Below are positions 6,572-27,539 of a DNA stretch of 37,080 nucleotides, piece after piece (position 1 is the first letter of the stretch; every line of letters begins with the position of its first letter). Origin of the DNA: Gammaproteobacteria bacterium (GTDB lineage: Bacteria > Pseudomonadota > Gammaproteobacteria > GCA-001735895); contig JACNJF010000185.1 of the NCBI GenBank assembly GCA_014382695.1, positions 1 through 37,080 of the forward strand. Reading direction: 5' to 3'. The notes under the pieces were generated by a model. The model had not been told where the DNA came from. It did not search any database and saw only the letters and a program-made list of their open reading frames with translations. Both the position numbers and the translations under genes were made by a program.

Positions 6572-7879
6572 ATGGCTCTTAAAAAAATTGATTACGCCAG
6601 ACCGGTCTATATTATCGACGGATGTCGAACACCATTTCTAAAAGCCAGAGGTAAACCAGGGCCGTTCAAACATACCGACCTCGCGATTAATGCATCCAGA
6701 GCGCTGTTACAAAAAATGCCTTTTGAAGCGGATGCTTTTGACGAAGTCATTTTTGGTGCGGCCATGCCAGGCTCTGATGAAGCGAATATCAGTCGTATTG
6801 TCGCTCTCAGACTTGGTTGCGGCGATAAAGTCCCTGCCTATACGGTTCATAGAAACTGTGCATCCGGTATGCAGTCATTGGATAATGCCGCCTTATCGAT
6901 TGCCGATGGGCGATCCGATCTGATCCTCGCTGGTGGTATAGAAGCCATGAGCCGTGCGCCGCTGTTATTACATGACAACATGGTGAACTGGCTGGCGAAC
7001 TGGTGGGGAGCGCGTTCTTTGTCAGCCAAAATTAAAGTGCTCTGGCAACTTCGTCCGGCCTATTTTGCTCCAGTAATTGCCCTGCTGAATGGCCTTAAAG
7101 ATCCGGTTGTGGGTCTGTCGATGGGTCAGACCGCTGAAAAAATAGCGTATCGTTTTGGCATTACGCGCGAGATGATGGATCGTTATGCGGTACAAAGCCA
7201 TCAGCGACTTTTACTGGCTCAGAAAAACCATGAACTGCCAGAAATCGTGCCAATTTTTGATCAAAAGGGAAACTTATATGATCTGGATGAGGGCGTACGC
7301 GCTGACTCATCCATCGAGAAGTTGGGTAAGCTAAAACCGGCTTTTGATAAGCCTTTTGGTACAGTCACTCCCGGTAACAGCTCTCAGATTACCGACGGTG
7401 CCGCCAGTCTGGTGCTGGCGAGCGCCGAAGCGGTTGAAAAACATAACCTGCCGGTTCTTGCACGTCTGGTCACCACACACTGGGCTGGGCTGGCTCCTGA
7501 TGAAATGGGTCTGGGGCCTGCACATGCCATAGCACCTCTCCTGCGATCACGCAGATTGAAAGCGGAGTCGATCGATTACTGGGAAATCAACGAAGCTTTC
7601 GCTGCTCAGGTTCTGGCCGTGGTTGAAGCGCTAAAGGATAAAAAATATTGTATTGAGCACCTCGGCATTCGTAGCGCGATAGGAGAAATCCCGATGGATA
7701 GACTTAATATCCATGGTGGTGGTATCAGCCTTGGACATCCTGTCGGGGCCAGTGGAGCACGCATCGTATTGCATCTGGCTAAAATACTGCAGGCAAAATC
7801 AGCTAAACGCGGCATTGCGTCCCTGTGTATTGGTGGTGGTCAGGGTGGCGCGATGTTAATTGAACGGGAGGGCGTGTAA
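6572..7879 (+). CDS. fadI: FadI-like 3-ketoacyl-CoA thiolase
   Basis: This enzyme performs the last step of beta-oxidation, cleaving 3-ketoacyl-CoA to acetyl-CoA and a shortened acyl-CoA. The 435-residue length fits FadI (436 in E. coli) better than FadA (about 390). The nucleophilic C96 lies in HRNCASGMQS. The NEAFAAQ motif, the GGGISLGHPVGASGAR histidine motif and the C-terminal CIGGGQGG with the second catalytic cysteine are all present. The gene is preceded by an AGGAA ribosome site. It lies two bases before the multifunctional partner, as expected for an alpha2-beta2 fatty-acid oxidation complex. Anaerobic use would fit the adjacent nitrate respiration genes, but that is only inference. 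Confidence 0.85.
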   Translation: MALKKIDYARPVYIIDGCRTPFLKARGKPGPFKHTDLAINASRALLQKMPFEADAFDEVIFGAAMPGSDEANISRIVALRLGCGDKVPAYTVHRNCASGMQSLDNAALSIADGRSDLILAGGIEAMSRAPLLLHDNMVNWLANWWGARSLSAKIKVLWQLRPAYFAPVIALLNGLKDPVVGLSMGQTAEKIAYRFGITREMMDRYAVQSHQRLLLAQKNHELPEIVPIFDQKGNLYDLDEGVRADSSIEKLGKLKPAFDKPFGTVTPGNSSQITDGAASLVLASAEAVEKHNLPVLARLVTTHWAGLAPDEMGLGPAHAIAPLLRSRRLKAESIDYWEINEAFAAQVLAVVEALKDKKYCIEHLGIRSAIGEIPMDRLNIHGGGISLGHPVGASGARIVLHLAKILQAKSAKRGIASLCIGGGQGGAMLIEREGV

Positions 7880-7881
7880 AA

Positions 7882-9918
7882 ATGGCTAATTCACTATTGA
7901 CTAAAAATACTTCGCACTGGCGTTCAGACATTGATCAGCAGGGCATTTTATGGCTGATTCTAGATCAGAAGGATGCCTCTACCAATGTACTTTCAGCCGA
8001 GGTTTTGCAACAACTGGATTCTATACTGGATAAAATTCACAGGGAGTTACCGCTAGCCGTGGTATTTAAATCCGCAAAATCGAGTGGATTTATCGCTGGT
8101 GCCGATATCAATGAGTTTCTGCAGGTGACTAATCAGCAGGAAGCTCTGATACTGATCCGGCGTGGGCAAGGTGTGTTTAATAAAATTGAAGCTCTCAGTT
8201 GTCCGACAATTGCGCTGATCGATGGGTTCTGCATGGGTGGCGGCACTGAACTGGTTCTTGCCTGTGATTACCGAATCGCCTCTGACAACCCATCCACACG
8301 TATTGGACTACCCGAGGTTAAGCTCGGCATCCACCCCGGATTTGGTGGTGTTGTACGCCTGACTCGTCTGGTCAATCCTTTTCAGGCTCTTGAAATGATG
8401 CTGAGCGGCAGGGCCTTAAGTGCCAGAGATGCGAAGAAAATTGGTCTGGTCGACTATGTCCAGCCTGAACGCCAGTTAACCCGTGCCGTCACCCACATAG
8501 CGCTAACGACGCCTCCGAAAAGAAAACTGCCCTGGACAGGCACCCTGCTTTCACTCCCGCTGATAAGATCGCTGGTGACTTTCATAATGAAAAAGCAGGT
8601 CGCAAAAAAAGCATCCATAGAGCACTACCCTGCTCCCTATGCATTGCTTGATGTCTGGAATAAATACTATGGCAGCCCATCGATGATGGAACAGGAGGCA
8701 AAATCGGTCGCCAGCCTGGTTCAGGGCGAAACGGTACGCAATTTGATTCGGGTATTTTTTCTTCAATCGCGTCTTAAAGGGCTTGCTGACAAGCATACAT
8801 TCCAACCCCGGCATGTGCATGTCATCGGTGCGGGGATCATGGGTGGAGATATTGCAGCATGGTGCGCCTTAAAAGGATTTCGAGTGACCCTGCAGGAACG
8901 TGAAGCCAAATACCTTAGCAATGCTTTTGCCAGAGCGCACCAGTTGTTTGCACGTAAATTAAAAACTCAGCATGAGCGCAATCAGGCCATCGATCGACTG
9001 ATACCGGACTGTGATGGAAATGGTGTCGCTCACGCCGATGTGATCATTGAGGCTATTTTCGAAAACATAGAGGCCAAGCATGCGATCTATAAAGACATAG
9101 AGCCACGCATGAGAAAAGATGCGGTGCTCGCCACCAATACGTCCAGTATTCCGCTGGAAACGCTGGCCGCAGCCCTGCAACAACCAGAACGTTTAGTGGG
9201 ATTACATTTTTTCAATCCGGTCGCAATGATGCCACTGGTTGAGATTGTGAAAAAAGACGACACCCCTGCCAGTGTGGTAAATCAGGCATCGGCATTCAGT
9301 CTGCATATCGGTAAATTACCGCTTCCGGTCAAGAGTTCGCCCGGATTTCTGGTCAACCGTATTCTGGTGCCCTATCTGATTGAAGCGGTAACCTTGCATG
9401 AGGAAGGAATCGCCATCGAGGCGATCGATAAAGCAGCCATTGATTTTGGAATGCCGATGGGCCCAGTCGAATTAGCAGATGCCGTTGGCCTGGATATCTG
9501 CCTTTCAGTAGCGACCAACCTGTCCAGCTTTAGTGGTTTTCAGGTGCCTGAAATCCTCAAAAAAATGGTCGCCGCAAAAACTCTGGGCAAGAAAACTGGC
9601 TCGGGCTTTTATCAATACAAAAAAGGCCACCCGATTAAAGATCATGATGCCAATATGGGGTTGCAGCAGGAGATTCAAAACCGCCTGATATATCGATTAT
9701 TAAACGAATCTGCAGCCTGTCTCCGTGAAGGCATCGTGGATGATCTGGATTTACTCGACGCTGGTGTCATCTTTGGTACCGGTTTTGCCCCTTTCCGAGG
9801 TGGCCCGTTAAACTATGGTAAAGATTCCGGGGTAAATTCAATCCAGCAAAATATGAAAATTTATCAGCAACGCTTCGGTGATCGATTCGAACCGGATGAA
9901 GGCTGGACAAGCGTTTAA
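7882..9918 (+). CDS. fadJ: FadJ-like multifunctional fatty-acid oxidation protein
   Basis: It combines enoyl-CoA hydratase and L-3-hydroxyacyl-CoA dehydrogenase activities. Residues 1 to about 290 form the crotonase domain, with AGADINEF at the oxyanion hole, GGGTELVLACDYR, and the second catalytic glutamate in LPEVKLGIHPGFGG. The NAD-binding VIGAGIMGGDIA starts near residue 313. The dehydrogenase catalytic histidine is in GLHFFNPVAMMPLVE, followed by the C-terminal helical domain duplicated as usual. The 678 residues are slightly shorter than E. coli FadJ (714). GGGAGGG at the end of the thiolase gene can act as its ribosome site, so the two genes are translationally close and form one operon. 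Confidence 0.87.
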   Translation: MANSLLTKNTSHWRSDIDQQGILWLILDQKDASTNVLSAEVLQQLDSILDKIHRELPLAVVFKSAKSSGFIAGADINEFLQVTNQQEALILIRRGQGVFNKIEALSCPTIALIDGFCMGGGTELVLACDYRIASDNPSTRIGLPEVKLGIHPGFGGVVRLTRLVNPFQALEMMLSGRALSARDAKKIGLVDYVQPERQLTRAVTHIALTTPPKRKLPWTGTLLSLPLIRSLVTFIMKKQVAKKASIEHYPAPYALLDVWNKYYGSPSMMEQEAKSVASLVQGETVRNLIRVFFLQSRLKGLADKHTFQPRHVHVIGAGIMGGDIAAWCALKGFRVTLQEREAKYLSNAFARAHQLFARKLKTQHERNQAIDRLIPDCDGNGVAHADVIIEAIFENIEAKHAIYKDIEPRMRKDAVLATNTSSIPLETLAAALQQPERLVGLHFFNPVAMMPLVEIVKKDDTPASVVNQASAFSLHIGKLPLPVKSSPGFLVNRILVPYLIEAVTLHEEGIAIEAIDKAAIDFGMPMGPVELADAVGLDICLSVATNLSSFSGFQVPEILKKMVAAKTLGKKTGSGFYQYKKGHPIKDHDANMGLQQEIQNRLIYRLLNESAACLREGIVDDLDLLDAGVIFGTGFAPFRGGPLNYGKDSGVNSIQQNMKIYQQRFGDRFEPDEGWTSV

Positions 9919-11514: not shown

Positions 11515-11800
11515 TTTATTTTTTCTCGTTTGCATGTGAATCGCGGCATCCTGCACATCGAAATTGCAATCAGTATCGGCGCCAGCAACGAGCAGTTCTT
11601 TACGTTATCGAACATAACAGGGCTAACATCCTGAACTCTTATGTGCGCTAGCGTCCAGACAGTCGTCAGGTTTCAATCCATACTGCGGAGCCTGTACCCA
11701 TGGGCCATCAAACGTCTCTGGCTCTTATCCACTATCAGGATTGCATTGCCAGAGCGCCATATGTGGTTTTGCGGGGTTTCCCAACACCAGGACAGTTCAT

Positions 11801-12523
11801 ATGCCAATCAGCAAATCTGCCCCAGTCGTCAACCGCTTGCTCGCGACTCTGCAGCACAAAGACTATCAACGCTTTGTAGAGGGTTGCACACCGGTTAAGC
11901 TAGCGTTTGCCGAGATCCTGGCCGAACCCGGCGAGCACATGCGCTATGTTTACTTCCCTACGGCGAGTTTCATTTCTCTGGTCAAACCAATCGATAGTCA
12001 TGCGGGCCTGGAGGTGGGTCTGATCGGAGATGAAGGCATGCTGGGAATTTCTCTTATACTCGGGGTCGAGGTGTCGCCACATCGCGCTCTGGTACAGGGA
12101 GCGGGGTCGGCACTGCGCATGGATGCTGCGGTGTTTTTGCGCGAACTTGAACAGACCCCTGCGCTACAACGGGAACTGAAGCGTTACCTCTATGTGGTGA
12201 TGTGCCAACTTGGCCAAACAGCGGCCTGCACTCACTTCCATGTGGTTGAGGCGCGTCTCGCCCGTTGGCTTTTGATGACACGGGACCGCGCACACTCGGA
12301 CACGTTTCATGTCACCCACGAATTTCTGGCCTACATGCTGGGCGTCCGCCGTGTCGGTGTTACCAGAGCTGCCACTACATTGCGAAATCAAAAACTCATT
12401 CACTATCGGCGCGGGGATATCACGGTTCTCGACCGTCACGGTCTGGAGGCCGCTTCCTGCGACTGTTACGCAATTGACTTAGCCACCTATGAGCGGATGC
12501 TGGGTAAAGGTCAAGCAAACTAG
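11801..12523 (+). CDS. Crp/Fnr family transcriptional regulator
   Basis: The 240-residue protein has an N-terminal cyclic-nucleotide-like beta-roll (about 25-130; [24 protein letters not shown]) and a C-terminal Crp-type helix-turn-helix (about 165-225; [21 protein letters not shown]). The FNR-type N-terminal cysteine cluster is absent, and the beta-roll lacks an obvious RxS cAMP-binding motif, so it is neither canonical FNR nor CRP. The ATG at 11801 is preferred over the in-frame TTG at 11741 because AGGAC lies upstream and the protein then starts at the family-typical point. The 286-nt divergent region to the DUF4398-like gene presumably holds both promoters. This type often sits beside envelope-stress genes. 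Confidence 0.8.
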
Positions 12524-14326: not shown

Positions 14327-17300
14327 CTATAGCGTCCAGGTGACCGTAACCGTGGTATTCATGGTCACTCTATTCACCGTAAATGAGATAGTCTCTGACC
14401 CTGCACTGCCAGCATCAGGGGTAAAGGTGATTCGATAACTACCATCCCCCCGATCACCCATTCTACCCATGACTGAATCGGTACCGGTCGTCGTTAGTCT
14501 GCCGGTACTCGGGTTGGCAACATTGGAAGCAAGCACTGCCTGTACATCAAGCCCTGCTCCGATGATATTGGAGCCGCTGTCGCGCGGGGTGATGATAATC
14601 ACCACCGGTGTACCCGCAATCGTACTCACCGGCGAGACTGGAGTCGACACTACCGACGTAGTGGTGGCATTTGCCGCAATGAAAGCTCCGCTATGGTGGT
14701 AGCCCAGGTTGACAATCAGTGCATCGGCTGTGCCATCAAGTCCACCATCGGTACGTGTAGTGGTCGTATTGAGCGCTACCGGCAGGATCGCGCTGGCGTT
14801 CGCCGAACCGGCATCGATAGCAGGTGAATCCGTGCCCTGAGGCACGAGTGCGCTGAGATACCAGCCCTCTACAAACAAAGGGTCAACCCCGATTAGAGCC
14901 GCAGTGCCACCGGTGAACAGGTTGCTACCTGGATTGGCAAGCAGACTTCCGATCAGGTTGTTGCTGGCTACAGTAATACGGCCCAGATCATCGTAAATAT
15001 CGTTAGTACCGTTAACCAGATCGGTATTGCCAAAGAAAATATTATCGCGCAGAGTGACCGTGCCGCTACTGCTTTCTACGTTTAACCCTGCCCCTTCAAA
15101 GTTTGCAGTATCCGATGACAGGTTGTGGGCGATGGTATTGTTAATGAGGGTTGGCGAAGTTGCACCGTTGATATAGATACCGCTACCGCTACCGAATGTA
15201 TTATTGGCAGTCGTACGGTTCTCAATAATCAGGTTGTTCTCAACGGTAATGCTGGAGCCCGAGAGATGAATCCCTCCTCCATCGAAATCGCTGTTCTGGC
15301 GAATCAGGTTGCCGATGATGTTGCCGTTGCCAGAGGACGCAATACCGCCACCAGCGTTATTCACGATGATATTATTGCGGATAATCGGACTTCCATTGGC
15401 AGAGTGGCTGATTCCCGCTCCGGTACCATCGCGGATGATGTTGTTCTCGAAGATGCCGGCGCCGGAAGACTGGATAACAACCGGGGTCGGTACACCCGTT
15501 ATAGTGAAACCCTGCACCACGTTCGCAGGAGAAGTGCTCGAAATCTGAATGCCCTGGTTGGAGGAAACACCACTGGCGGTATCATGGAAGATCGTCAGGC
15601 CTTGCGGCGTGGACTCGGTGAAGGTGGTCGACAGGTTGCTGCCCGCCAGCGCCAGATGGCGCGAAGTGTTTTCGCTCAACGCCAGGTTGTTGAAGGTCAC
15701 GGTCGCACCTGTTGACGGAGTCAGTACCACTCCGTCCTGACAGTAGTTAACGGCCAGATTGTTGAAGATTGTGGGCGTAGTAAGATTGATGATATCGATG
15801 CCATCGCGTGCATACCAGACATCGAGAAAGTTGAGCGTGCCGCCGACACTGCCTGAACTGAAATTAACCCCCTCCCAACTGATCAAATGCGCAACATTAC
15901 CGACCCCAACATTCGTGTCTACCGATGAGGTCAATACAACATGGTTGCCAGCTCCTGCTGTACCATTCACATTCAATGTGCCGCCACTGGCGATCGTCAG
16001 GCTTTGGCCGGATTGAAACTTGATCAGCACGCCTGAGTTGAGGGTTAGCGTGACCAGATTGGGTACAATGAGGGTAGAAGGTACCTGCCAGTAGCTGCCA
16101 ACTCCCAATGGCTCAGGCGCCAGGGTTAAATTACCCAGCAGGGTACCGGAAATTCGCGCATAGTCTTCAACCAGTCCGGCACCTGCAGTCCAGTTGACCA
16201 GTGCAGGTAGATTCATGCCGATTACGGTATAGGGCGAAGGAGCGTTAAGCAAAGTAATGTTGAGGCCGAAGGCAGGTGTGGCGTTATTACTGAAATATAA
16301 CGATGAAAGCACAGCACCACTAAGCGTTAAATCACTATATGATCCGCCGGCACCTTCCAGAACCAGATTATAATTGCCACCATTGATCGTATTGACACCT
16401 GCTGTACCATTGAACAGAGGGGCCAGCGTTGCATCACCCAGCAGATGTACCCCATTCACACCAACCGTGCCGGTATCACCAATGGTCAAACCTGTTATGG
16501 TCGGGTTGATCAGTCCACTGCTGGCATCATCTATAAATATACCGCTGCCCGCTACGTTGTTGATATGTACTCCACTCCAGATACCCGTCAGGGTTGAGTC
16601 GTTATTCGCATCAATAAAAATTGCGTGATATCGGGAGTCTCTACCAATATCGTTGTAGCTGACATTTTGCAGATTAACGGTCATGCTTTGACCTGTAGCC
16701 AATCCAATATTCAGACCATAAAAATCGGTGCTACGGAATTCCGTATTCTTCACACTGAGCGCTGAACCCGGCTGGGTAAAGCTCTGGAAAAGACCATAAT
16801 CCGCATAGCTAATCAGCGCATTATCGATCGTTACCGACGCTCCAGCATTCATTTGAATCCTTCCCCAGATACCACGAACTACCGCTGTACCATCACTAAT
16901 ATTCGCTCCCACACTGTTATCCCGAAACGACGTCAGTACCGATTGCGGGCCAACACCATCTCCATCACCAATAGTCAGGCTACCGGTGACAGAAAGTAGC
17001 TGGTTAAGGTCAAATTTCAATATTGCCCCATCGTTGATCGTGAGTGTGGTGCCTGCCGGAATCGTCAAGGTCGAAATAACACGGTAAATACTACTCCCCG
17101 TATTCAACGGGTCCTGCTGCAGAATGCTATTGGCAAGTGTTCCACCGGTAGCAATGTAATTCCGCACAGCCGTACTACTCGTGGTATTAAATCCAAGATC
17201 AATACTGCCTGCACCCAATACACCGACAACAGGAGACATGGTTGTTAGCAGATGGTAAGGAGACGGTGCACTATTCAATATCACCGTGGCATCGGTCCAG

Positions 17301-20300
17301 ACGGTTGGACTGAATGCACCAGCCAGCTGGATCGATGACGTTCTAGCACTACTTAAGGTTAGATCGCTATAGGAACCGGCAACGCCATCCAGAACCAGAT
17401 TATAATTGCCACCATTGATCGTATTGACACCTGCTGTACCATTGAACAGAGGGGCCAGCGTTGCATCACCCAGCAGATGTACCCCATTCACACCAACCGT
17501 GCCGGTATCACCAATGGTCAAACCTGTTATGGTCGGGTTGATCAGTCCACTGCTGGCATCATCTATAAATATACCGCTGCCCGCTACGTTGTTGATATGT
17601 ACTCCACTCCAGATACCCGTCAGGGTTGAGTCGTTATTCGCATCAATAAAAATTGCGTGATATCGGGAGTCTCTACCAATATCGTTGTAGCTGACATTTT
17701 GCAGATTAACGGTCATGCTTTGACCTGTAGCCAATCCAATATTCAGACCATAAAAATCGGTGCTACGGAATTCCGTATTCTTCACACTGAGCGCTGAACC
17801 CGGCTGGGTAAAGCTCTGGAAAAGACCATAATCCGCATAGCTAATCAGCGCATTATCGATCGTTACCGACGCTCCAGCATTCATTTGAATCCTTCCCCAG
17901 ATACCACGAACTACCGCTGTACCATCACTAATATTCGCTCCCACACTGTTATCCCGAAACGACGTCAGTACCGATTGCGGGCCAACACCATCTCCATCAC
18001 CAATAGTCAGGCTACCGGTGACAGAAAGTAGCTGGTTAAGGTCAAATTTAACGATGGCTCCGTCGTTTATTGACAGGGTAACCCCGGCAGGGATGGTAAT
18101 CGTCGAAGTTACTCTCCAGACACTGTCTAACCCTGTTCCTGACGGGTTGATATTGAGAGGGTCAGGTGTCAGCGTCATATTGGCTGGAAATGTACCCAGT
18201 ATTCGAATGTAATTCTTGCTAACGGAAGGACTGGTAAAGTCATAACCACCGATGATAATTGGGGTTAAATCCTGCCCTGCCAGTTCATACGGTGTGGGTG
18301 CGTTAGTAAGCGTGACGTTAGAGAATACCGCTGGCACACTGGCATTTTCGAGACGAAGGCCTGCGATCAGGGTATTGGTCATACTGATGCCACGAAACCT
18401 GCCATCACTGTTATTCAGTTGCATGCCATAACCTGCGGTATCGATATTGACGGTCGCAGTCGCCAGGAATTCCGGATTGTTATTCTCAAAATAAACCGCA
18501 GAGGATGTGGTTGAGCTATTGGTAAAATTGTTGACGCCATCGAAGATCGTAGACAGCGGCCCTGATACCAGGTTGGTATCGCGGATATCCAGCGCGTTGG
18601 TTGCGGAACCATTCACCGTCAGGTTGGACAGGGTGATCGACACGGTACCCGCCGAGTTACTATTAATATTGATACCGTCGCCAGCCGGATTGATTACCGT
18701 TACATTGTTGACCAAACCATTGATATTGCTGCTACTAAAGGCCGCAATCTCCAACCCATGATCATTGGTTGCAGTGCCGGTTTCATTGATAACGAGGCCG
18801 TTGATGTTGAGCACCGCGGTTGCCGTGTTGGTCGCATTGATACGTACACCGGGGTTGATGGTACTGAAGCCATTAATATCATAGTCGTTGAAAGTGATAT
18901 TCGACAGATTGACCGAATGCGTGCTGGTATTCACATCAAACAGGATACCGTAGGAGCCGCAATCACCAATCTCGACGTTACTGAACACCGGCGAGCTGTT
19001 GCTGACGTTGATACAGGTGTTGGCGTACTTGACGGCAGCATTGCGGATTACGCTACTGCTGCTTGAGCCGCTTTGCAGCGTGATACCAACCCAGTCGTTG
19101 TCCGACGCCTGAGCTGAGTTACCATTGCCGCTGGTATCGCCGTTGATACTGTCATCTAAAATCGAGGTAATCACGACGTGTTGTGGCAGCGGAGCGTTGC
19201 CCTGCGCATTCAGTGCTCCGCCGGACTGTACGATGATATCGACGTTGACCTGAGCCTTAATCACAACACCTGGCTCTATGGTCAGGGTCGCTCCACTTCG
19301 AACCGTCACATCGCTCTGCAGCCAGTAAGGAGATTGCGCCAGCGACCAGGTGGTATTCGTCGTGATATCGTTATTCGCTACTGGTAACGCCAGCGTACTG
19401 ATAATCGTTGTAGGTGGGAAATCCGAGGCCAGGAGCGGTAAGGTGCCACGCAATTTTTCATTTCCATCGAAGAAACCATCGCCATCACTATCCGCAAGAT
19501 TAGGATTGGTGCCATCCAGGCCTTCCTGGATATCCGTTATACCATCACCATCACTATCCGCTATCACCGTGACCGTCACTACACCGCTGGCAGAACGCGC
19601 GGGAACGCCGTTATCGACAATGTTATAGGTGAAGCTGTCAGTGCCATTAAAATTTAACGCAGACGTATAGGTCACCGTACCGTTGCCATTATTCACCACA
19701 ACGCCATTGGCAGCCTGGGTCACCCCGGAGATCGACAGCGTATTGCCTTCAAGATCGGTATCATTGGCGATTAAATTGGCGATGGTGACGGGGAATCCCT
19801 GCACCACTGAGGCCGTATCGGGATTCGCAACCGGCGCATCGTTGACCGGATTAACCGTGATGCTGACGCTGGCGGAGGTGGTGCTAACCGCTCCAAACTG
19901 GTCGATAGCGGTGTAGGTAAAGCTGTCAGCACCATTAAAATTTAACGCCGGAGAGTAAGTGACGGATGTGTTGCCTGCATCAATCGTCACCACTCCATTA
20001 GTCGGCTGAGTTACGCTATCGATCAGGAAGGTATGACTCTCGGGGTCACTATCATTGGCAAGCAATCCGGTTACAGCCAGCGATGTGTCTTCATCCGTGA
20101 CATAGCCCGAATCATTCACGACTATCGGGCCGGAATTTAGCGAAACCAGATTGATATTCACGCTATCTACGGCCGTACCACCTTCGTTATCGGTGACCGT
20201 CAACTGGAACGTAAACGTCGTGTCGTTAGCGATATCCGGTCCGGTGAAGGTGGGGTTAGCGATATTCGCATCGGATAGAACCACTGTCGGGGCGCCCGCT

Positions 20301-22507
20301 GTCTGCAGCCAGCTGTAGCCGGTGATACTGCCATCGTCGGTACCGGTTCCGTTCAGCGTTACCAGCAGTTGTTCGTTTAAGGTCTGATCCAGGCCCGCGT
20401 TAGCAATCGGTGGAACCAGCACTGGCCTGACAATCACGGTCACAAAATCAATGCCAATTGCGCCTGAGTTGTCGGTAACGGTTAACTGAAAAACCAGTAC
20501 ATCAATCGTATTGATCAGCACCACCGGTGAGGTCAGGCTGGCGCTGGCGCTATTCGCATTGGTCAGAGCGACCGCTGTCCCGCTAATCTGGCTCCACTGA
20601 TAGGAAGCAATCGTACCATCGGTATCGCTAGCGGAGCCTGTCAACGAAACCAGCGTCTGTTCATCGACGGTTTGATCGATACCGGCATCAACGGTGGGTA
20701 AAATATTCACTGAATTGACGATGATATTGACACTGTCGATGCTGACAGCCCCTTCGTTATCGGTAACCGTAAACGCGAATACCATCGCTTCGGTCACACC
20801 AATATCAGGCGCATTAAAACTCGCTGAATTGCTAGCTCCACCTGTCAGGGTTACCGGCGTACCACTCAGTTGACTCCATTGAACGCTCGCAATCGTACCG
20901 TCTGTATCCGTGCTAATGCCGCTTAAGGCGACCGCGGTTTGTTCATTAACCGATTGATCTGCACCGGCATTACTGGTGGGGCTGTTGTTTACGGGTATCA
21001 CTACGATGCTGACCGTCTTGGTGTCTGTTAACCCTGAGTTATCGGTCACTCTAAAACTGAAAGTCAGCACTGTTACCTGGGTAACCGTGGGCGCAGTGAA
21101 GCTCGCAGCCGTCGTGGTCGCTCCATTTAAGTTAACAGATGCGCCACTGATCTGGGTCCACAGCACACTGGCGATGGTGCCATCAGCATCGCTGCCACTG
21201 CCGTTTAAAGTAACCGCCGTCTGCTCATTCACGGTCTGATTACTTCCTGCGTCCGCGACGGGAGGCGTTCCTGTTGACACCGGTGGCGTCACGACTGGTG
21301 CGTTGGTCACGGTAATGGCGATCTGGGCGGTATCCTGCCCGCCTCTACTATCCGAGATGCTATAGCTGAATACGGTATTACCGGTAAACCCGGCTGCCGG
21401 TACGAAGCTAAACGCACCGCTACTGGTGCGACTGACCGCTCCATTGGTGGGCTGGGTAAACCCGGTAATGGTCAGGCTATCGCCATCGGGGTCGGTATCA
21501 TTCGCCAGTGCATTGCTAATATTGATTGAAACGCCACTGATCGTTGAAGCCACATCGTCAACCGCATTGGGACTACTATTGGTACCGGCAACTGCCAGTA
21601 TGGTTTCATTGACGGCTACTACATTCTGTACCGGCGTTAGCGCATAGGCCGCAAAGTTATTATTTCTGAAACGCTGGATGGCCAGGTTCAGATTGATCGT
21701 CTGGGGGAAATCTTTCGCCACTCCATCGACCACCACCTGTACATTGGCCCCCTGCTTCTTGCCATTTAGATTGCCATCAGACAGATCATCGACCATGGCT
21801 CGTAATATGGCGTAATCAGGAACAGGTTTGTTAAGGATGATCGCAGCACTATTCAGTGCTGTGGCTAATCCGCCCAGATACATGGCGTATCCTATCGAGT
21901 CCACATTGGCACTCGCGGCGGGGGTCAGCGGATTCGCTGCGATGATTGAAAATGGATCAAAGCCCAGTGCCAGCCTGGCCGTATTTCGATTATTGTTCAG
22001 TACCGCCTGAAAATTATTGCTGGCTGTTTCTGCACGGCTTTTCTGCAGCAGTGCGTGGGTCAGAATGGTAACCGACGCCGTTGATTCTCCGGCAAGCAAA
22101 ACACCTTCCAGCGTATCGGTACTGGCAAAACTGATGGTTCTTTTATTGCTCGGCGCAGGATCGGCCTCATCCAGATAGCTGCCACCAGAGACAACGATCA
22201 GCATCGCGCTTGTCGGGCTACTAGTGAGATTGACCTGCCACTGTCCGTTGGCATCCGTTGTGGTGCTTGCCAGAGCAGCACCGGTTTGCTGTCCAGTATT
22301 ATCGAGGGCAAATATTTCTACCGTCGCAGCACTGATTGGGCCTTTACTGGCTACCCCGGATATAGTGATCGTAGTATCCGTGACACTGTCACTATTTTGA
22401 GCCAGTTCGTTTCCGGCCATCGGAGTCGAATCCTGTTGCTCCTGATTACAGGCCACCAGTAGAACAAGAAGAGAGAACGAGAGGATCAGAAGTTGAATGA
22501 GTTTCAT
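14327..22507 (-). CDS. Giant multidomain surface lipoprotein with beta-helix
   Basis: The product of 2726 residues starts with a lipoprotein signal (LVAC, C20; Asn at +2, so outer-membrane sorting is expected). Next come a carboxypeptidase-regulatory-like beta fold (45-135) and a helical region (140-300). A cadherin-like 'ANDTDPDGD' domain (310-400) precedes four PKD/REJ-like repeats with ADAG..QTVNEQT..L.G (about 415-790). Two further tandem cadherin-like domains end near 990, before a calcium-binding thrombospondin-3 segment (DSDGDGITD, DSDGDGFFDGNE; to about 1035). A very long right-handed parallel beta-helix (about 1050-2590) and a C-terminal Ig-like domain (2610-2726) follow. This architecture suits an adhesin, or possibly a polysaccharide-binding or -cleaving protein; no catalytic residues can be assigned. 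Residues 1487-1707 and 1831-2051 are encoded by a perfect DNA repeat. The ribosome site AAGGAG overlaps the end of the FecR gene, 11 nt upstream. Confidence 0.85.
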   Translation of the reverse strand: MKLIQLLILSFSLLVLLVACNQEQQDSTPMAGNELAQNSDSVTDTTITISGVASKGPISAATVEIFALDNTGQQTGAALASTTTDANGQWQVNLTSSPTSAMLIVVSGGSYLDEADPAPSNKRTISFASTDTLEGVLLAGESTASVTILTHALLQKSRAETASNNFQAVLNNNRNTARLALGFDPFSIIAANPLTPAASANVDSIGYAMYLGGLATALNSAAIILNKPVPDYAILRAMVDDLSDGNLNGKKQGANVQVVVDGVAKDFPQTINLNLAIQRFRNNNFAAYALTPVQNVVAVNETILAVAGTNSSPNAVDDVASTISGVSINISNALANDTDPDGDSLTITGFTQPTNGAVSRTSSGAFSFVPAAGFTGNTVFSYSISDSRGGQDTAQIAITVTNAPVVTPPVSTGTPPVADAGSNQTVNEQTAVTLNGSGSDADGTIASVLWTQISGASVNLNGATTTAASFTAPTVTQVTVLTFSFRVTDNSGLTDTKTVSIVVIPVNNSPTSNAGADQSVNEQTAVALSGISTDTDGTIASVQWSQLSGTPVTLTGGASNSASFNAPDIGVTEAMVFAFTVTDNEGAVSIDSVNIIVNSVNILPTVDAGIDQTVDEQTLVSLTGSASDTDGTIASYQWSQISGTAVALTNANSASASLTSPVVLINTIDVLVFQLTVTDNSGAIGIDFVTVIVRPVLVPPIANAGLDQTLNEQLLVTLNGTGTDDGSITGYSWLQTAGAPTVVLSDANIANPTFTGPDIANDTTFTFQLTVTDNEGGTAVDSVNINLVSLNSGPIVVNDSGYVTDEDTSLAVTGLLANDSDPESHTFLIDSVTQPTNGVVTIDAGNTSVTYSPALNFNGADSFTYTAIDQFGAVSTTSASVSITVNPVNDAPVANPDTASVVQGFPVTIANLIANDTDLEGNTLSISGVTQAANGVVVNNGNGTVTYTSALNFNGTDSFTYNIVDNGVPARSASGVVTVTVIADSDGDGITDIQEGLDGTNPNLADSDGDGFFDGNEKLRGTLPLLASDFPPTTIISTLALPVANNDITTNTTWSLAQSPYWLQSDVTVRSGATLTIEPGVVIKAQVNVDIIVQSGGALNAQGNAPLPQHVVITSILDDSINGDTSGNGNSAQASDNDWVGITLQSGSSSSSVIRNAAVKYANTCINVSNSSPVFSNVEIGDCGSYGILFDVNTSTHSVNLSNITFNDYDINGFSTINPGVRINATNTATAVLNINGLVINETGTATNDHGLEIAAFSSSNINGLVNNVTVINPAGDGININSNSAGTVSITLSNLTVNGSATNALDIRDTNLVSGPLSTIFDGVNNFTNSSTTSSAVYFENNNPEFLATATVNIDTAGYGMQLNNSDGRFRGISMTNTLIAGLRLENASVPAVFSNVTLTNAPTPYELAGQDLTPIIIGGYDFTSPSVSKNYIRILGTFPANMTLTPDPLNINPSGTGLDSVWRVTSTITIPAGVTLSINDGAIVKFDLNQLLSVTGSLTIGDGDGVGPQSVLTSFRDNSVGANISDGTAVVRGIWGRIQMNAGASVTIDNALISYADYGLFQSFTQPGSALSVKNTEFRSTDFYGLNIGLATGQSMTVNLQNVSYNDIGRDSRYHAIFIDANNDSTLTGIWSGVHINNVAGSGIFIDDASSGLINPTITGLTIGDTGTVGVNGVHLLGDATLAPLFNGTAGVNTINGGNYNLVLDGVAGSYSDLTLSSARTSSIQLAGAFSPTVWTDATVILNSAPSPYHLLTTMSPVVGVLGAGSIDLGFNTTSSTAVRNYIATGGTLANSILQQDPLNTGSSIYRVISTLTIPAGTTLTINDGAILKFDLNQLLSVTGSLTIGDGDGVGPQSVLTSFRDNSVGANISDGTAVVRGIWGRIQMNAGASVTIDNALISYADYGLFQSFTQPGSALSVKNTEFRSTDFYGLNIGLATGQSMTVNLQNVSYNDIGRDSRYHAIFIDANNDSTLTGIWSGVHINNVAGSGIFIDDASSGLINPTITGLTIGDTGTVGVNGVHLLGDATLAPLFNGTAGVNTINGGNYNLVLEGAGGSYSDLTLSGAVLSSLYFSNNATPAFGLNITLLNAPSPYTVIGMNLPALVNWTAGAGLVEDYARISGTLLGNLTLAPEPLGVGSYWQVPSTLIVPNLVTLTLNSGVLIKFQSGQSLTIASGGTLNVNGTAGAGNHVVLTSSVDTNVGVGNVAHLISWEGVNFSSGSVGGTLNFLDVWYARDGIDIINLTTPTIFNNLAVNYCQDGVVLTPSTGATVTFNNLALSENTSRHLALAGSNLSTTFTESTPQGLTIFHDTASGVSSNQGIQISSTSPANVVQGFTITGVPTPVVIQSSGAGIFENNIIRDGTGAGISHSANGSPIIRNNIIVNNAGGGIASSGNGNIIGNLIRQNSDFDGGGIHLSGSSITVENNLIIENRTTANNTFGSGSGIYINGATSPTLINNTIAHNLSSDTANFEGAGLNVESSSGTVTLRDNIFFGNTDLVNGTNDIYDDLGRITVASNNLIGSLLANPGSNLFTGGTAALIGVDPLFVEGWYLSALVPQGTDSPAIDAGSANASAILPVALNTTTTRTDGGLDGTADALIVNLGYHHSGAFIAANATTTSVVSTPVSPVSTIAGTPVVIIITPRDSGSNIIGAGLDVQAVLASNVANPSTGRLTTTGTDSVMGRMGDRGDGSYRITFTPDAGSAGSETISFTVNRVTMNTTVTVTWTL
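16356..17017 (-). repeat. Direct repeat copy A (662 bp, exact)
   Basis: This block is identical, base for base in my comparison, to 17388-18049. The spacing is 1032 bp, or 344 codons, so the reading frame is kept. It encodes residues 1831-2051 of the giant lipoprotein, a beta-helix section from LKFDLNQLLSV-like to GNYNLVL. Sequence immediately outside diverges on both sides, while the protein remains recognisably homologous. Confidence 0.95.
17388..18049 (-). repeat. Direct repeat copy B (662 bp, exact)
   Basis: The second copy encodes residues 1487-1707. Exact identity over 662 bp, synonymous sites included, inside modules whose flanks have diverged points to recent gene conversion or duplication. 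It also marks a place where the array can expand or contract by homologous recombination in steps of 344 residues. Confidence 0.95.
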
Positions 22508-22518
22508 GGTCTATCTCC

Positions 22519-24135
22519 TTATTTCTTCTGAAAAATGGCACTGCCCGAAACGCTGGCCGGTGTACCACCGACGTTGGCATCGAGAGTAAAGCCCATTCCT
22601 GCGCCACTGGCATTATTGGTAAGAAAGCCGGCGGTATTTCCGCTTCCTGAAATATTCGCTGTACCGGTATTGACGTTGACACTGTTCATATTGCCACTGA
22701 ATCCACCATTCGAAGAAATGGGTAACCCACTGGCAGACGCGTTCCAGACCTGATTATTGATCCCGATGGCGACTGAGGTATCGACACTTCTGCTGGTAAA
22801 ATTAGCATCCAGCGTGGCCGTTCCTAAAACGCCGATTTGCCCGAGATTATTAGTGGGTGAAGTATTTCCCACCAGTTGATAGCTGGCCGTACCGGTGCTG
22901 GGCAATGCAATCGACTGCGACTGATCCGGACTCGCTACCCAGTGCAGACTGGAACTGGTTAAATCGCTGCTCAAGACACTGCCATTGGTTTTTTGAATTT
23001 GCGCAACCCCTCCCCCCCAACGCCCCCAGGCTATACCGGTAGCAGGGTCAAAGCCCAGATCCAGTGTGGCTGCGGTGCCTGGTGTATAAATGCCAACACC
23101 TTCACTGACTGTCTGGTTTTCATATCGGGTTAACTGATTATTCGTGACCGTGGCCGAGGTTGACGGGTTTGAGCGCACAAACGAAGCCGGCCCCGAAGAC
23201 ACGACCATCCGACTACTTTCAATCGTGCCTGGATTAAATATTAATGGGGGGCCACTCAGGGTTTTCCCGGTTTTAACGATTTCGATATTTTTTTCAATCT
23301 GTTCCTGCGCCAGCTCAACCGGATCCACTTTCAGATTCTGTTTGATCGAGTCATCGCTATTTAGATCGGAACTGACAGGTTCAACTACCGCGCGAGAAGC
23401 GACCGTAGTTTCGGTCGCACTATCCGTATTACTATTACCAGCCTGATCATCATCCGGATTGGGTGGACGACTGTTAAAATAGAGAAACTCAGGAGCCGAG
23501 GTCAACGCTACCGGGGCACTGGTGGCATCCCTGACATAGCCGAACTGTAATTCTGCCAGATCCAGGGTGCCGAGCTGATTGGTCAGATTGACGCCACCAT
23601 CATTCACACCCACATACAGGCCATCCGCGATCGAAGACGCCGACGTTAAGTTACCAAAAGCCTGATTACAATCCTGATTACATAGCCTGGCGGTATAATC
23701 GGTTCCCCGAATGCCAATGGTTGCGGTCAGCGTTCTCATTTGATAGGCGCTTCTCAGACGTTTGCCGATGATGCCGGTCACCGCTCTGAAACCGCCCCGG
23801 ATCAGCGAAAAAATACCGCTGTCTTCTTCCTTGGTCGCTCCAAGCTGATAGGACTCAATTTTGATTTCGCTGTTAGACCTTAAGGCAATGAAGGCCTTAT
23901 CGATCATACGCAGTTGAACCAGAGAGTTATTTGAGGTTCGGATGATTTCTCCTGAATCCACATGATCACGCCTGGACAGGATTCGAACTTTGCCATTTAC
24001 ACTTTCAGCAGAAACTTCACCGTAGGCAAATATGACCCTGCCCGCCTCTGCGTGAGCTACATTAGCGAACAGTAAAGAGTAGAGTGCCGTGACCGACAAA
24101 CAGATAAAAATGGCTCGATTAACTATTTTAATCAT
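22519..24135 (-). CDS. FecR-domain protein with C-terminal barrel-like domain
   Basis: The 538-residue product has a cleavable signal (to AHA, residue 29). A FecR domain (about 31-150: GRVIFAYGEVSAESVNGKVR..., DHVDSGEIIRTSNNSLVQLR, FIALRSNSEIKIESY) precedes an RTLTATIGIRGTDYTARLC segment common in exported, stand-alone FecR proteins. A variable linker (190-365) follows. The Gly/Ser/Asn-rich C-terminal domain (370-538) has repeated beta-strands such as TASYQLVGNTSPT, GTATLDANF and a final GSAIF. That domain resembles the eight-stranded barrel of TbpB-like proteins exported by Slam/type XI systems, so I consider it a possible cargo. There is no TonB or sigma-factor gene nearby, so a classical FecR signalling role is unlikely. 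The start overlaps the preceding gene's stop (ATGA). Confidence 0.75.
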   Translation of the reverse strand: MIKIVNRAIFICLSVTALYSLLFANVAHAEAGRVIFAYGEVSAESVNGKVRILSRRDHVDSGEIIRTSNNSLVQLRMIDKAFIALRSNSEIKIESYQLGATKEEDSGIFSLIRGGFRAVTGIIGKRLRSAYQMRTLTATIGIRGTDYTARLCNQDCNQAFGNLTSASSIADGLYVGVNDGGVNLTNQLGTLDLAELQFGYVRDATSAPVALTSAPEFLYFNSRPPNPDDDQAGNSNTDSATETTVASRAVVEPVSSDLNSDDSIKQNLKVDPVELAQEQIEKNIEIVKTGKTLSGPPLIFNPGTIESSRMVVSSGPASFVRSNPSTSATVTNNQLTRYENQTVSEGVGIYTPGTAATLDLGFDPATGIAWGRWGGGVAQIQKTNGSVLSSDLTSSSLHWVASPDQSQSIALPSTGTASYQLVGNTSPTNNLGQIGVLGTATLDANFTSRSVDTSVAIGINNQVWNASASGLPISSNGGFSGNMNSVNVNTGTANISGSGNTAGFLTNNASGAGMGFTLDANVGGTPASVSGSAIFQKK

Positions 24136-25454
24136 GGTGTAAACTCACTCCTTGCGGTAAACATGACAATGCTTTTTTCATAATCAAAGATTTCAATATT
24201 CGAGGTGTTATCGGTTTTTCCGATCAGCGCATTCAGCATCCAGGTTTTATTGATACGCCAGCTACCTCCAAGCGATACATCTGCCTGACTGTCGACTCTG
24301 GCTTGGTTGTTGTTAAAAAAGTTGCCGCTATAATCAGAGTCGGTAGCACCAACCGAGAAGTAAACATTGAAGCGGTGAGTAAATGGATAGGATGCCGACA
24401 GCCGCAGGCCGGCAAAGTCGCGTCCATAGGGAGAGTTTTCGTCCACCGGAGTATCTTTACCGCCGATTGCAGCGAGTACCATCGACACTCTGGATTCGCC
24501 AGAAAACACGTGTGCCCAGCTCATGCCATACAGCGTTTGATCGATATCCTTACTGTCAAATTGCTGGTCATAATCGACATTTCCACCGCGTAGAAATAAC
24601 CCCATCTGATTGGCCGGGGAAAAATTCAGGGTGTATTGACCGGTTAAGTTAATCCCTTTGTTATTAAACTCACCATCCACATCGGCAGTATAAAACTGCA
24701 ATGCCAGCGACAGGTCACTGCTGCTACCGAAGGATTTGGAGTAGCCAATCAGGCCGTCGTAATTGACCGTGCTGGTGTAGGAAGCATCGTTATTGGCACG
24801 ATGATTAATACTGGCTTTAAAGAAAAATTTGCTGTCGAAGTTGAATGGCAGGTCATAACTGGCTCCGCCCATGGTAGAGATAACCGATGATGAGGTTTCA
24901 CGGCTTTCATCCGACAGGTCAAAGCCAAGAAAGCTGTCTGCCGAAGTTGCATTATTAACATTACTGTCATCCCCCACCCCGAGTTGCAGAAAGCCCCTCC
25001 AGCCGCGTCGGTTTTGTAGATTACGGCTCTCTATAGCCGCCATGTATTTATCGATCACATCACTGACATTTTGTGGAGGTGACTGATTTTGTAATACCAG
25101 AAATTCACGCTGCGCCCGCTCCATCTGGCCCATGTCAAAGTAGGAACGCGCCAGCTCGAGTCTGGCTCCTGCAAAATTTGGTTCAATCGCGAGAACCCGT
25201 TGAAACGCAAACACAGCAGCCGCAGGATCACCGGTATCGAGTAATGCAAGGCCGTAAAGGTAGTCATACTCTTTATCGCCGGCATACTCTTCTTCATGCG
25301 GGTTAAGTAAATCCAGAGCCTCTACGGACTGTCCCTGATTAAGCATATTCTGCGCAGCCAGCAATACACTTTTATCGGCCGCATGCAAAACACTACTTTG
25401 AACCAGCCAGAAACACACCAAAACCTTAAACGAGCAGAAATAAAATCCCTTCAT
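24132..25454 (-). CDS. TPR + beta-barrel outer-membrane protein, Slam/DUF560-like
   Basis: The 440-residue protein has a Sec signal peptide (to about LHA, residue 25), TPR-type helices (about 28-145, including YLYGLALLDTGDPAAAVFAFQRVL and FAGARLELARSYFDMGQMERA) and a C-terminal porin-like barrel from about 150. The barrel opens with GFLQLGVGDDSNVNNATS, the pattern seen at the barrel start of Slam/DUF560 proteins. It continues as alternating polar/hydrophobic strands to a terminal strand IVMFTARSEF. Slam proteins (type XI secretion) move lipoproteins or soluble cargo across the outer membrane, and both genes downstream are exported candidates. It is first in the operon and starts about 100 nt from the CRP site. 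It could instead be a different TPR-porin, such as a polysaccharide-export type. Confidence 0.72.
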   Translation of the reverse strand: MKGFYFCSFKVLVCFWLVQSSVLHAADKSVLLAAQNMLNQGQSVEALDLLNPHEEEYAGDKEYDYLYGLALLDTGDPAAAVFAFQRVLAIEPNFAGARLELARSYFDMGQMERAQREFLVLQNQSPPQNVSDVIDKYMAAIESRNLQNRRGWRGFLQLGVGDDSNVNNATSADSFLGFDLSDESRETSSSVISTMGGASYDLPFNFDSKFFFKASINHRANNDASYTSTVNYDGLIGYSKSFGSSSDLSLALQFYTADVDGEFNNKGINLTGQYTLNFSPANQMGLFLRGGNVDYDQQFDSKDIDQTLYGMSWAHVFSGESRVSMVLAAIGGKDTPVDENSPYGRDFAGLRLSASYPFTHRFNVYFSVGATDSDYSGNFFNNNQARVDSQADVSLGGSWRINKTWMLNALIGKTDNTSNIEIFDYEKSIVMFTARSEFTP

Positions 25455-25520
25455 GCTGAGTTAATTTTCCTTTGCTAGAGTTTTTTAGGATTGAGCAACA
25501 TTTGTTGTTACCTGGAACAA

Positions 25521-25526
25521 ATAATA
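25521..25526 (-). promoter_or_regulatory. -10 element of the surface-display operon
   Basis: On the minus strand TATTAT (five of six bases of TATAAT) begins 30 bases after the CRP palindrome centre and ends at base 35. That is exactly -12 to -7 if the site is centred at -41.5. The predicted start of transcription is near 25514, giving a leader of about 60 nt with a GGA ribosome site before the ATG at 25454. No good -35 is visible, as expected of a class II activator-dependent promoter. Confidence 0.65.
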
Positions 25527-25547
25527 TCCCTGGAGCTGGTTATTACT

Positions 25548-25563
25548 TGTGACCTGCGTCACA
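25548..25563 (-). promoter_or_regulatory. Perfect CRP (cAMP receptor protein) site
   Basis: TGTGA-N6-TCACA is a complete match to the CRP consensus palindrome, read on either strand. It lies between the yoaA stop and the TPR-barrel gene. The centre is 101 nt upstream of the start codon. With the TATTAT element at 25526-25521, the centre falls at -41.5, the class II activation position. Confidence 0.8.
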
Positions 25564-25610: not shown

Positions 25611-27539
25611 TTAGAGTTTTACTGCAAATTCAAGTACCTGCTCAAGGCTAAGGGCACGCTCCATGGGAGGCAGGCTATCCAGTATTTCGCGTGCATAGGG
25701 CTTACTCTGCAGACGTTTGTCCGCAATCATCACGATACCTCTATCGTTGATATCACGTATCAGTCGCCCCACTCCCTGTCTGAGACTGATGGTTGCCTCC
25801 GGAATCTGAATCTCTTTGAAGGCATTCCCACCGTTTTCTGCGACCCGTTGCAGGCGCCGTTTATACACCGGGTCTCCCGGAGATTTAAATGGCAGCTTAT
25901 CGATGATCACGAGTTTCAGCTTATCCCCCTTGACATCGACCCCTTCCCAGAAGCTGCTGGTGCCCAGTAATACTGGATTGGGAGTTTTCAGATACTTTTC
26001 AATCAGTTCGCTGCGCTGATGTTCACCCTGGATAAACAGTTTGTTTTTAAGCCGCCGCGACAGTGCCGTTGCGGTCAGTTTCAGCATTCGATAGCTGGTA
26101 AACAGGATGAAACAGTAGCCCTGCGTAGCGTTTATCAACGTACAGCATTCATCCGCAAAGGCATCGGCATAGGCCATATCAGTGGGCTCTGGGATATTTT
26201 GCGGCAGATAAAGCAGCGCCTGTTTTTTATAATCGAACGGACTGATGAAGGTTGCACAGCTTAAATCCTGGATACCGAGTCGGCGAGTAAAGTAATCGAA
26301 TGAACCATTCGAACTGAGCGTTGCGGAAGTGAAAAAGATAGATTTATACAGACTTCTGTCTATCTGCTGGCGGAACTGTTGGGAGACTTCAACGGGTGAA
26401 ATCATCAACCGAAAACTGCGCTCATTCCATTCATACCAGGTTACGACTTCGCTACTCGATTGCAGAAAACCGGCCAGAACCTTTATTAGATTATCCAGTC
26501 TTTGAGCACAGGCCGCGAGCTCTTTGCCGCGTGCCTTTAAAATATCGAGATGCTCAGCAAGTTGCCCCATCACCCGTTGTAACTCCGTCACTGCGGCACG
26601 TATTTCGGGTGCATGCTGGATATTGCGCCACTCGCCCTTGGGGTTGAATTTCCCCAGCACCAGGCGGAAGTCGGCGATGGTTTTCTGGTTTAGATGACAA
26701 AGCTCCTGTATATCCTTACTGTCACGTGCTTCTACGGTCTGTGCGTCGATAATATCTTTCATCAGCAGGTCGTACTGACGCATGGTCAGGCTTTGCCCGA
26801 AGAAATGACTGGCCACATCGGGTAGCTGGTGCGCTTCATCGAAGATCAGTACATCGACCTCGGGTAACAGTTCGCCAAAACCTTCCTCCCGGATCGCCTG
26901 ATCCGAGAAAAACAGGTGATGATTAATCACGATCACATCTGCATCCTGAGCTTTGCGGCGTGCCTTTGTGACGAAGCAATCGTTATATTCGGGGCAGTCA
27001 CTACCCAGGCAATTATCGGCGTTCGAGGTCGCATAGAACCAGAGCGGATCGTTTTCCGGGATATTTGAAAACTCTGCTATATCACCCGTTTTTGTCTTTT
27101 CCGACCAGTGCTTTAGCGCTTCGAAAATTGACAGGTACTGACGTGACTGAAAGCGCCGTTGCAGTCGGTATTTATCGATACGATGGATACAGCCGTAATT
27201 ACTGCGCCCTTTCAGCAAAGCCAGTTGCTTGCCCGACACGATGGTTTTATTGATCAGTGGAATATCCTTCTTGAACAACTGATCCTGCAGGTTTTTGGTA
27301 CCCGTCGAAATGAGTATTTTTCCGCTCGATAAAAATGCCGGCACCAGATACGCAAACGACTTACCGATACCGGTGCTGGCCTCGATCACATGGCTTTGCC
27401 TGTGTTCGATAGCATTCTGGATTAATTCTGCCATCGCCAGCTGACTGGAGCGCGCCTGAAAGCCGGGAATATACTGGCTGATAATGCCGTCGGTTCCGAG
27501 TACTTCTGCGACATTTAATTCTACTGCCAGTTTAGCCAT
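25611..27539 (-). CDS. yoaA: YoaA/DinG-family Fe-S DNA helicase
   Basis: This is an XPD-like 5'-3' superfamily 2 helicase of DNA repair. The 642-residue length and sequence match YoaA (636 in E. coli) better than DinG. Walker A is EASTGIGKSFAY and Walker B is DEAH in LIFDEAHQLPD. The Fe-S cluster cysteines are GCIHRI, NCLGSDCPEYNDCF and the stretch between. Motif VI is VGRLIRD near the C-terminus. TSFWEGVD, here as SSFWEGVDV, is also present. It lies 15 nt after the lpoP-like gene and is probably co-transcribed with mrcB. In E. coli, YoaA acts with HolC in tolerance of replication blocks. Confidence 0.88.
   Translation of the reverse strand: MAKLAVELNVAEVLGTDGIISQYIPGFQARSSQLAMAELIQNAIEHRQSHVIEASTGIGKSFAYLVPAFLSSGKILISTGTKNLQDQLFKKDIPLINKTIVSGKQLALLKGRSNYGCIHRIDKYRLQRRFQSRQYLSIFEALKHWSEKTKTGDIAEFSNIPENDPLWFYATSNADNCLGSDCPEYNDCFVTKARRKAQDADVIVINHHLFFSDQAIREEGFGELLPEVDVLIFDEAHQLPDVASHFFGQSLTMRQYDLLMKDIIDAQTVEARDSKDIQELCHLNQKTIADFRLVLGKFNPKGEWRNIQHAPEIRAAVTELQRVMGQLAEHLDILKARGKELAACAQRLDNLIKVLAGFLQSSSEVVTWYEWNERSFRLMISPVEVSQQFRQQIDRSLYKSIFFTSATLSSNGSFDYFTRRLGIQDLSCATFISPFDYKKQALLYLPQNIPEPTDMAYADAFADECCTLINATQGYCFILFTSYRMLKLTATALSRRLKNKLFIQGEHQRSELIEKYLKTPNPVLLGTSSFWEGVDVKGDKLKLVIIDKLPFKSPGDPVYKRRLQRVAENGGNAFKEIQIPEATISLRQGVGRLIRDINDRGIVMIADKRLQSKPYAREILDSLPPMERALSLEQVLEFAVKL

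Follow-up and report, generated by a model that had tools for sequence, protein, structure and literature searches.

The window, the whole 37,080-nucleotide stretch of gammaproteobacterial DNA analysed here (contig JACNJF010000185.1, positions 1 to 37,080), carries a 156-bp gap between two minus-strand genes, a yoaA-like helicase gene that ends at 25611 and the first gene of a surface-protein operon that starts at 25454. This gap holds TGTGACCTGCGTCACA (25548–25563), a TGTGA-N6-TCACA palindrome with no mismatch and the single perfect copy in the window, which its sequence and its conservation upstream of orthologues mark as a predicted site for CRP (cAMP receptor protein). Reading leftwards, 21 nt separate it from a minus-strand TATTAT at 25526–25521 (ATAATA at 25521–25526 on the plus strand), which we assign as the −10 element from its sequence and from the family-wide pile-up of such hexamers 20–21 nt past the site. 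A minus-strand transcription start predicted from this element lies 7 nt past the hexamer, at 25514; taking 25521 as −7, the palindrome is centred at 25555.5, or −41.5. The −35 stretch, CAAGTA, agrees with TTGACA at 1 of 6 positions, as expected where CRP must substitute for a −35 element. Class II CRP promoters carry inverted TGTGA repeats 6 bp apart over the −35 region, together with a −10 element and no good −35 (PMC12360894); the window shows both the overlap of palindrome and −35 and a centre near −41.5, and it is from this geometry that class II is predicted. The sequence-only reading of this DNA, which had placed a perfect palindrome at −41.5 from a −10 element and the helicase stop 48 bp beyond the site, was accurate on both counts.

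Downstream lie three minus-strand genes. The first (24132–25454) encodes a protein with a signal peptide, a TPR domain and a Slam/T11SS-like 14-stranded outer-membrane β-barrel, assigned by Pfam and AlphaFold2; the model (14 strands, pLDDT 89.8) matches the 14-strand barrels CymA and OmpG with Z of 21–23. The second gene (22519–24135) overlaps the first by 4 nt and, by Pfam, AlphaFold2 and fold match, joins a FecR domain to a C-terminal β-barrel of T11SS-cargo fold. Residues 60–221 of its product are FecR-like (PupR, Z 15.5), while the last 240 residues (299–538) match established or probable T11SS cargo proteins, namely NHBA (Z 13.4), HphA (Z 12.1), fHbp (Z 12) and TbpB (Z 11.7), with a model confidence of about 90 in the final barrel and below 50 in the linker spanning residues 220–307. 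The third gene (14327–22507), recognized by Pfam and its lipoprotein signal, encodes a 2726-aa lipoprotein (LLVAC-N) with PKD/Ig/cadherin-like repeats and a right-handed β-helix.

The perfection of the motif does not in itself argue for function. The sequence-only reading had leaned on its rarity, an argument that fails against equal counts of reversed-motif controls: pattern counts in the source genome give 3 perfect sites and 3 controls, and 54 sites with one mismatch against 64 controls, with about 4 perfect sites expected per 4 Mb. The bare motif is therefore at chance level in this genome, although pooling 8 genomes of the genus reveals an enrichment of perfect sites over controls (31 versus 8; binomial p = 3e-4). 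Elsewhere, perfect CRP sites lie near the pyruvate kinase start in the source genome and three others of the genus (G000, G001, G003 and G005; L003, L082, L075 and L072).

The comparison of orthologous promoters that the sequence-only reading had proposed was more telling. Orthologues of the barrel gene were found in three genomes of the genus (G004, G006 and G002), where 67–72% protein identity goes with a retained site, and in one of the family (G028). The orthologous sites carry 0, 0, 1 and 2 mismatches in G004, G006, G002 and G028, respectively, and are followed after 20, 20, 20 and about 21 nt by the −10-like hexamers TATAGT, TATGAT, TATGAT and TAATCT, with surrounding sequence that aligns poorly. 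A further genome, G001, carries a perfect site, 20 nt and TATAGT in the same place after yoaA (L070, G001:C8:229-244); the remaining ~230 nt of that contig contain no barrel gene, which may reflect an orphan promoter, an insertion or an assembly break. The −41.5 register is thus not invariant, since the G001, G002, G004 and G006 promoters are one base shorter than that of the window (20 versus 21 nt).

These orthologues also settle to which gene the site belongs. In G006 the operon adjoins a solute-binding-protein gene rather than yoaA, and in G028 its neighbour is what we take, from our own reading of the sequence, to be an mgtE-like gene; because the site accompanies the operon into these other neighbourhoods, we assign it to the surface operon rather than to yoaA. 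The proposed separation of the site from the mrcB-lpoP-yoaA operon is borne out by the move in G006, and a role in regulating yoaA was rejected, as the site lies downstream of the yoaA stop and travels with the surface operon. We looked for a terminator between yoaA and the site and found none, which leaves read-through as a possible additional source of operon transcripts. The palindrome itself was considered as a terminator or RNA hairpin, its coding-strand stem being followed by AAGTAATAA, and this was set aside given that no terminator was called there and that the region folds no better than shuffled sequences (z = −0.88).

Conservation extends well beyond the close relatives. A contig scan with the single barrel protein as query gave no matches; an alignment of the FecR proteins used as query retrieved 79 loci in named genomes, almost all of which are MAGs, and in most of these loci a TPR-barrel gene immediately precedes the FecR gene. 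With the whole-genome loci added there are 71 distinct upstream regions, which we divided into the 22 best homologues of the TPR/β-barrel gene (at least 200 bits) and 49 more distant ones. A site with no more than one mismatch occurs within 300 bp upstream in 17 of the 22, and is perfect in 7, against a mean of 0.24 and a maximum of 3 for 29 permuted TGTGA palindromes; among the 49 distant regions the corresponding figures are 5 and a permuted mean of 0.31. Across all 71 regions, 22 genes bear a site, and a −10-like hexamer follows it at an offset of 20 (6 genes) or 21 (8 genes) in 14 of them, compared with 0–5 hexamers at each other offset. These counts overstate the independence of related sequences, but despite this kinship the conservation signal, as read from the sequences, is far from chance. 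Hence, while the control counts within the source genome would allow a functionless coincidence, the persistence of both site and −10 spacing in differing neighbourhoods leaves that explanation with almost no credibility.

The source genome also encodes a suitable regulator. The sequence-only reading had staked its proposal on a CRP/Vfr orthologue being present, and one of about 212 aa was found (L008, G000:C234), with 63% identity to E. coli CRP, a score of 344 bits against the 266-bit cut-off of the NCBIfam CRP equivalog NF008732, and PDB matches to E. coli CRP (1e-86) and P. aeruginosa Vfr (1.2e-79). Its recognition helix reads CSREMAGR. In E. coli CRP numbering, with the letters read from the alignment, it keeps R82, S83, T127 and S128, the helix residues R180, E181 and R185, and the AR1 residues T158, H159 and G162, and differs at the AR2 positions H21 (K) and K101 (Q). 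This orthologue is not the only candidate, given 17 cNMP-domain matches in the genome, a paralogue (L006) with a similar recognition helix (ATREMVHR) and a Crp-type HTH regulator encoded in the window itself (11741–12523), any of which might lead a CRP/FNR-family protein other than cAMP-dependent CRP to occupy the site. We consider this improbable, since the motif conforms to the classical consensus for CRP, since L008 lies above the equivalog cut-off and the Crp-type protein of the window does not, and since, of the 45 genomes that encode a CRP orthologue, 19 have the site, compared with 2 of the 24 that lack one (Fisher p = 0.005).

Whether bound CRP would activate can likewise be judged from the layout. 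In E. coli the AR2 residue K101 contributes to class II activation. With K101 and H21 both replaced in L008, activation may lean on AR1, and this partial change of AR2 could also be taken to mean that CRP represses, or that it acts mainly with a second regulator, with cAMP lowering or merely tuning expression; four loci of the family (L104, L089, L151 and L121) moreover have no clear −10 at 20–21 nt. Against this, a site over the −35 region with a poor −35 and a good −10 is an activation layout, and the offsets of 20–21 nt stand out family-wide, making repression or mere tuning a little less probable even than binding by another family member.

We therefore favour, with high confidence for a prediction from sequence, a conserved class II cAMP–CRP promoter that serves a T11SS-like surface operon. 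According to this model, cAMP made by class III cyclases would load the CRP/Vfr orthologue; loaded CRP would bind 25548–25563, overlapping the poor −35 region, and recruit RNA polymerase to the TATTAT element, so that a leftward transcript would begin near 25514. A single transcript would then encode the TPR/14-strand barrel, the FecR protein with its cargo-like barrel and the giant surface-type lipoprotein.

The enzymes that the genome encodes bear on the signal that would raise cAMP. Neither a class I CyaA nor a PTS EIIA-Glc was found in the source genome, which is an estimated 95.9% complete, and an E. coli-style carbon link is thus unsupported. The earlier proposal that surface-protein production is tied to cAMP, and thus to carbon status or surface sensing, accordingly survives in part: the predicted CRP-type class II promoter and the CRP orthologue speak for the tie to cAMP, whereas a carbon-status signal of the E. 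coli kind is not supported. Three class III cyclase-domain proteins are encoded instead, a CHASE2-cyclase, a cyclase with no other Pfam domain and a cyclase-FHA protein. Surface sensing as the signal is compatible with these class III cyclases and with a site before the pilY1 operon, which permit it without singling it out. The latter site, a perfect palindrome in the source genome, precedes a fimT-pilV-pilW-...-pilY1 minor-pilin operon by ~100 bp (L164:2248-2263 = G000:C46:11247-11262); G002 likewise carries a perfect site upstream of fimT (L074), overlapping the end of a thiO-like gene.

In its repeat layout the site matches E. coli class II promoters such as galP1, of the CC(−41.5) type, and mchA (PMC12360894). 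It differs from them in that the gap to the −10 is 20 rather than 21 nt in four close orthologous promoters, and in that the host is an uncultured gammaproteobacterium whose cAMP would be supplied by class III cyclases. Its target operon has, to our knowledge, no counterpart in E. coli. The Vfr regulon of P. aeruginosa offers a second likeness, through a Vfr/CRP orthologue, class III cyclases and the perfect site before a pilY1-containing minor-pilin operon. In P. aeruginosa, Vfr controls the minor pilins via FimS/AlgR, and we know of no T11SS-like operon among Vfr targets.

The promoter is an ordinary one of a well-known kind; the operon that it would control is of greater interest. T11SS/DUF560 proteins combine an N-terminal TPR domain with a 14-stranded barrel (PMC8406197), a topology that the predicted structure of the first product shares, and the predicted fold of the FecR protein includes an 8-stranded barrel of the TbpB/fHbp cargo kind, for which we found no sequence-level match to cargo. 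The operon thus resembles T11SS loci in its TPR/14-stranded barrel, in the cargo barrel fold of the neighbouring product and in its lipoprotein gene, and departs from them in the N-terminal FecR domain of the cargo-like protein, in the giant Ig/PKD/β-helix lipoprotein encoded by its third gene, and in the reach of the PF04575 (SlipAM) profile, which extends to some relatives and not to the barrel protein of the window (no match at E 0.1). PF04575 matches 8 of 19 family members, and two of those scored lie above the 22-bit cut-off (L099, 29.3 bits; L090, 22.7 bits), and the TPR_Slam profile PF24575 stays below cut-off in all proteins examined. When the barrel protein was searched against the PDB by sequence profile, only TPR proteins came back, and the fold matches listed for it include no solved Slam structure. 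The grounds for calling it a T11SS protein are thus its topology, the weak matches to Pfam and the cargo-like partner. As a working hypothesis we hold that the barrel may work like a T11SS transporter, as suggested by the modelled topology and the cargo fold, and would export the FecR protein or the lipoprotein.

The three genes are, in our view, best read as a T11SS-like surface operon in a FecR variant that is as yet undescribed. Outside the animal-associated cluster, T11SS transporters have no experimentally verified cargo, and the same paper makes no mention of FecR (PMC12282271); nor did the literature searched contain a paper that connects FecR with either DUF560 or type XI secretion. 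A FecR domain joined to a barrel of fHbp/TbpB/NHBA/HphA fold, encoded beside a TPR/14-strand barrel, is possibly a new T11SS cargo architecture as judged from the models, and since no cargo has been verified outside the animal-associated cluster, the operon provides a testable cargo–transporter pair together with a candidate inducing signal. The link between cAMP–CRP and this operon appears to be a conserved one, in which the regulator would switch on a T11SS-variant-like operon across diverse uncultured Gammaproteobacteria.

The surroundings of the wider family suggest that this link may run in both directions. At ten loci (L099, L087, L096, L100, L103, L110, L116, L123, L130 and L161), cyclases 37–50% identical to the CHASE2 cyclase of the source genome (L033) are encoded within the 5-kb flanks of the TPR-barrel/FecR modules, which suggests a link between module and cAMP; where the contigs of the closest relatives reach far enough, most encode a lipobox protein next in the module, and in L099 a CHASE2-adenylate cyclase (6750–8990) occupies the third place of the module. 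A CHASE2 adenylate cyclase beside the modules of some ten relatives would, if the link holds, close a feedback loop from surface to cAMP. More broadly, and as a speculation that we hold to be less probable than its opposite, these operons might represent an undescribed T11SS branch of free-living Gammaproteobacteria, in which the barrel exports a FecR–cargo fusion and perhaps the giant lipoprotein, under ancestral cAMP–CRP control and with feedback through the CHASE2 cyclase.

Two features of the operon products are recorded as side observations. Residues 28–124 of the FecR protein also resemble, at Z 11, the module that anchors an antifreeze protein to the surface (5ix9), and the N-terminus of the FecR protein gives a match below cut-off to the NCBIfam family retention_LapA. 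The giant lipoprotein gene contains 300-nt direct repeats at 16313–16612 and 17345–17644, 96% identical and 1032 bp apart, which represent either a recent internal duplication of β-helix units or an assembly effect.
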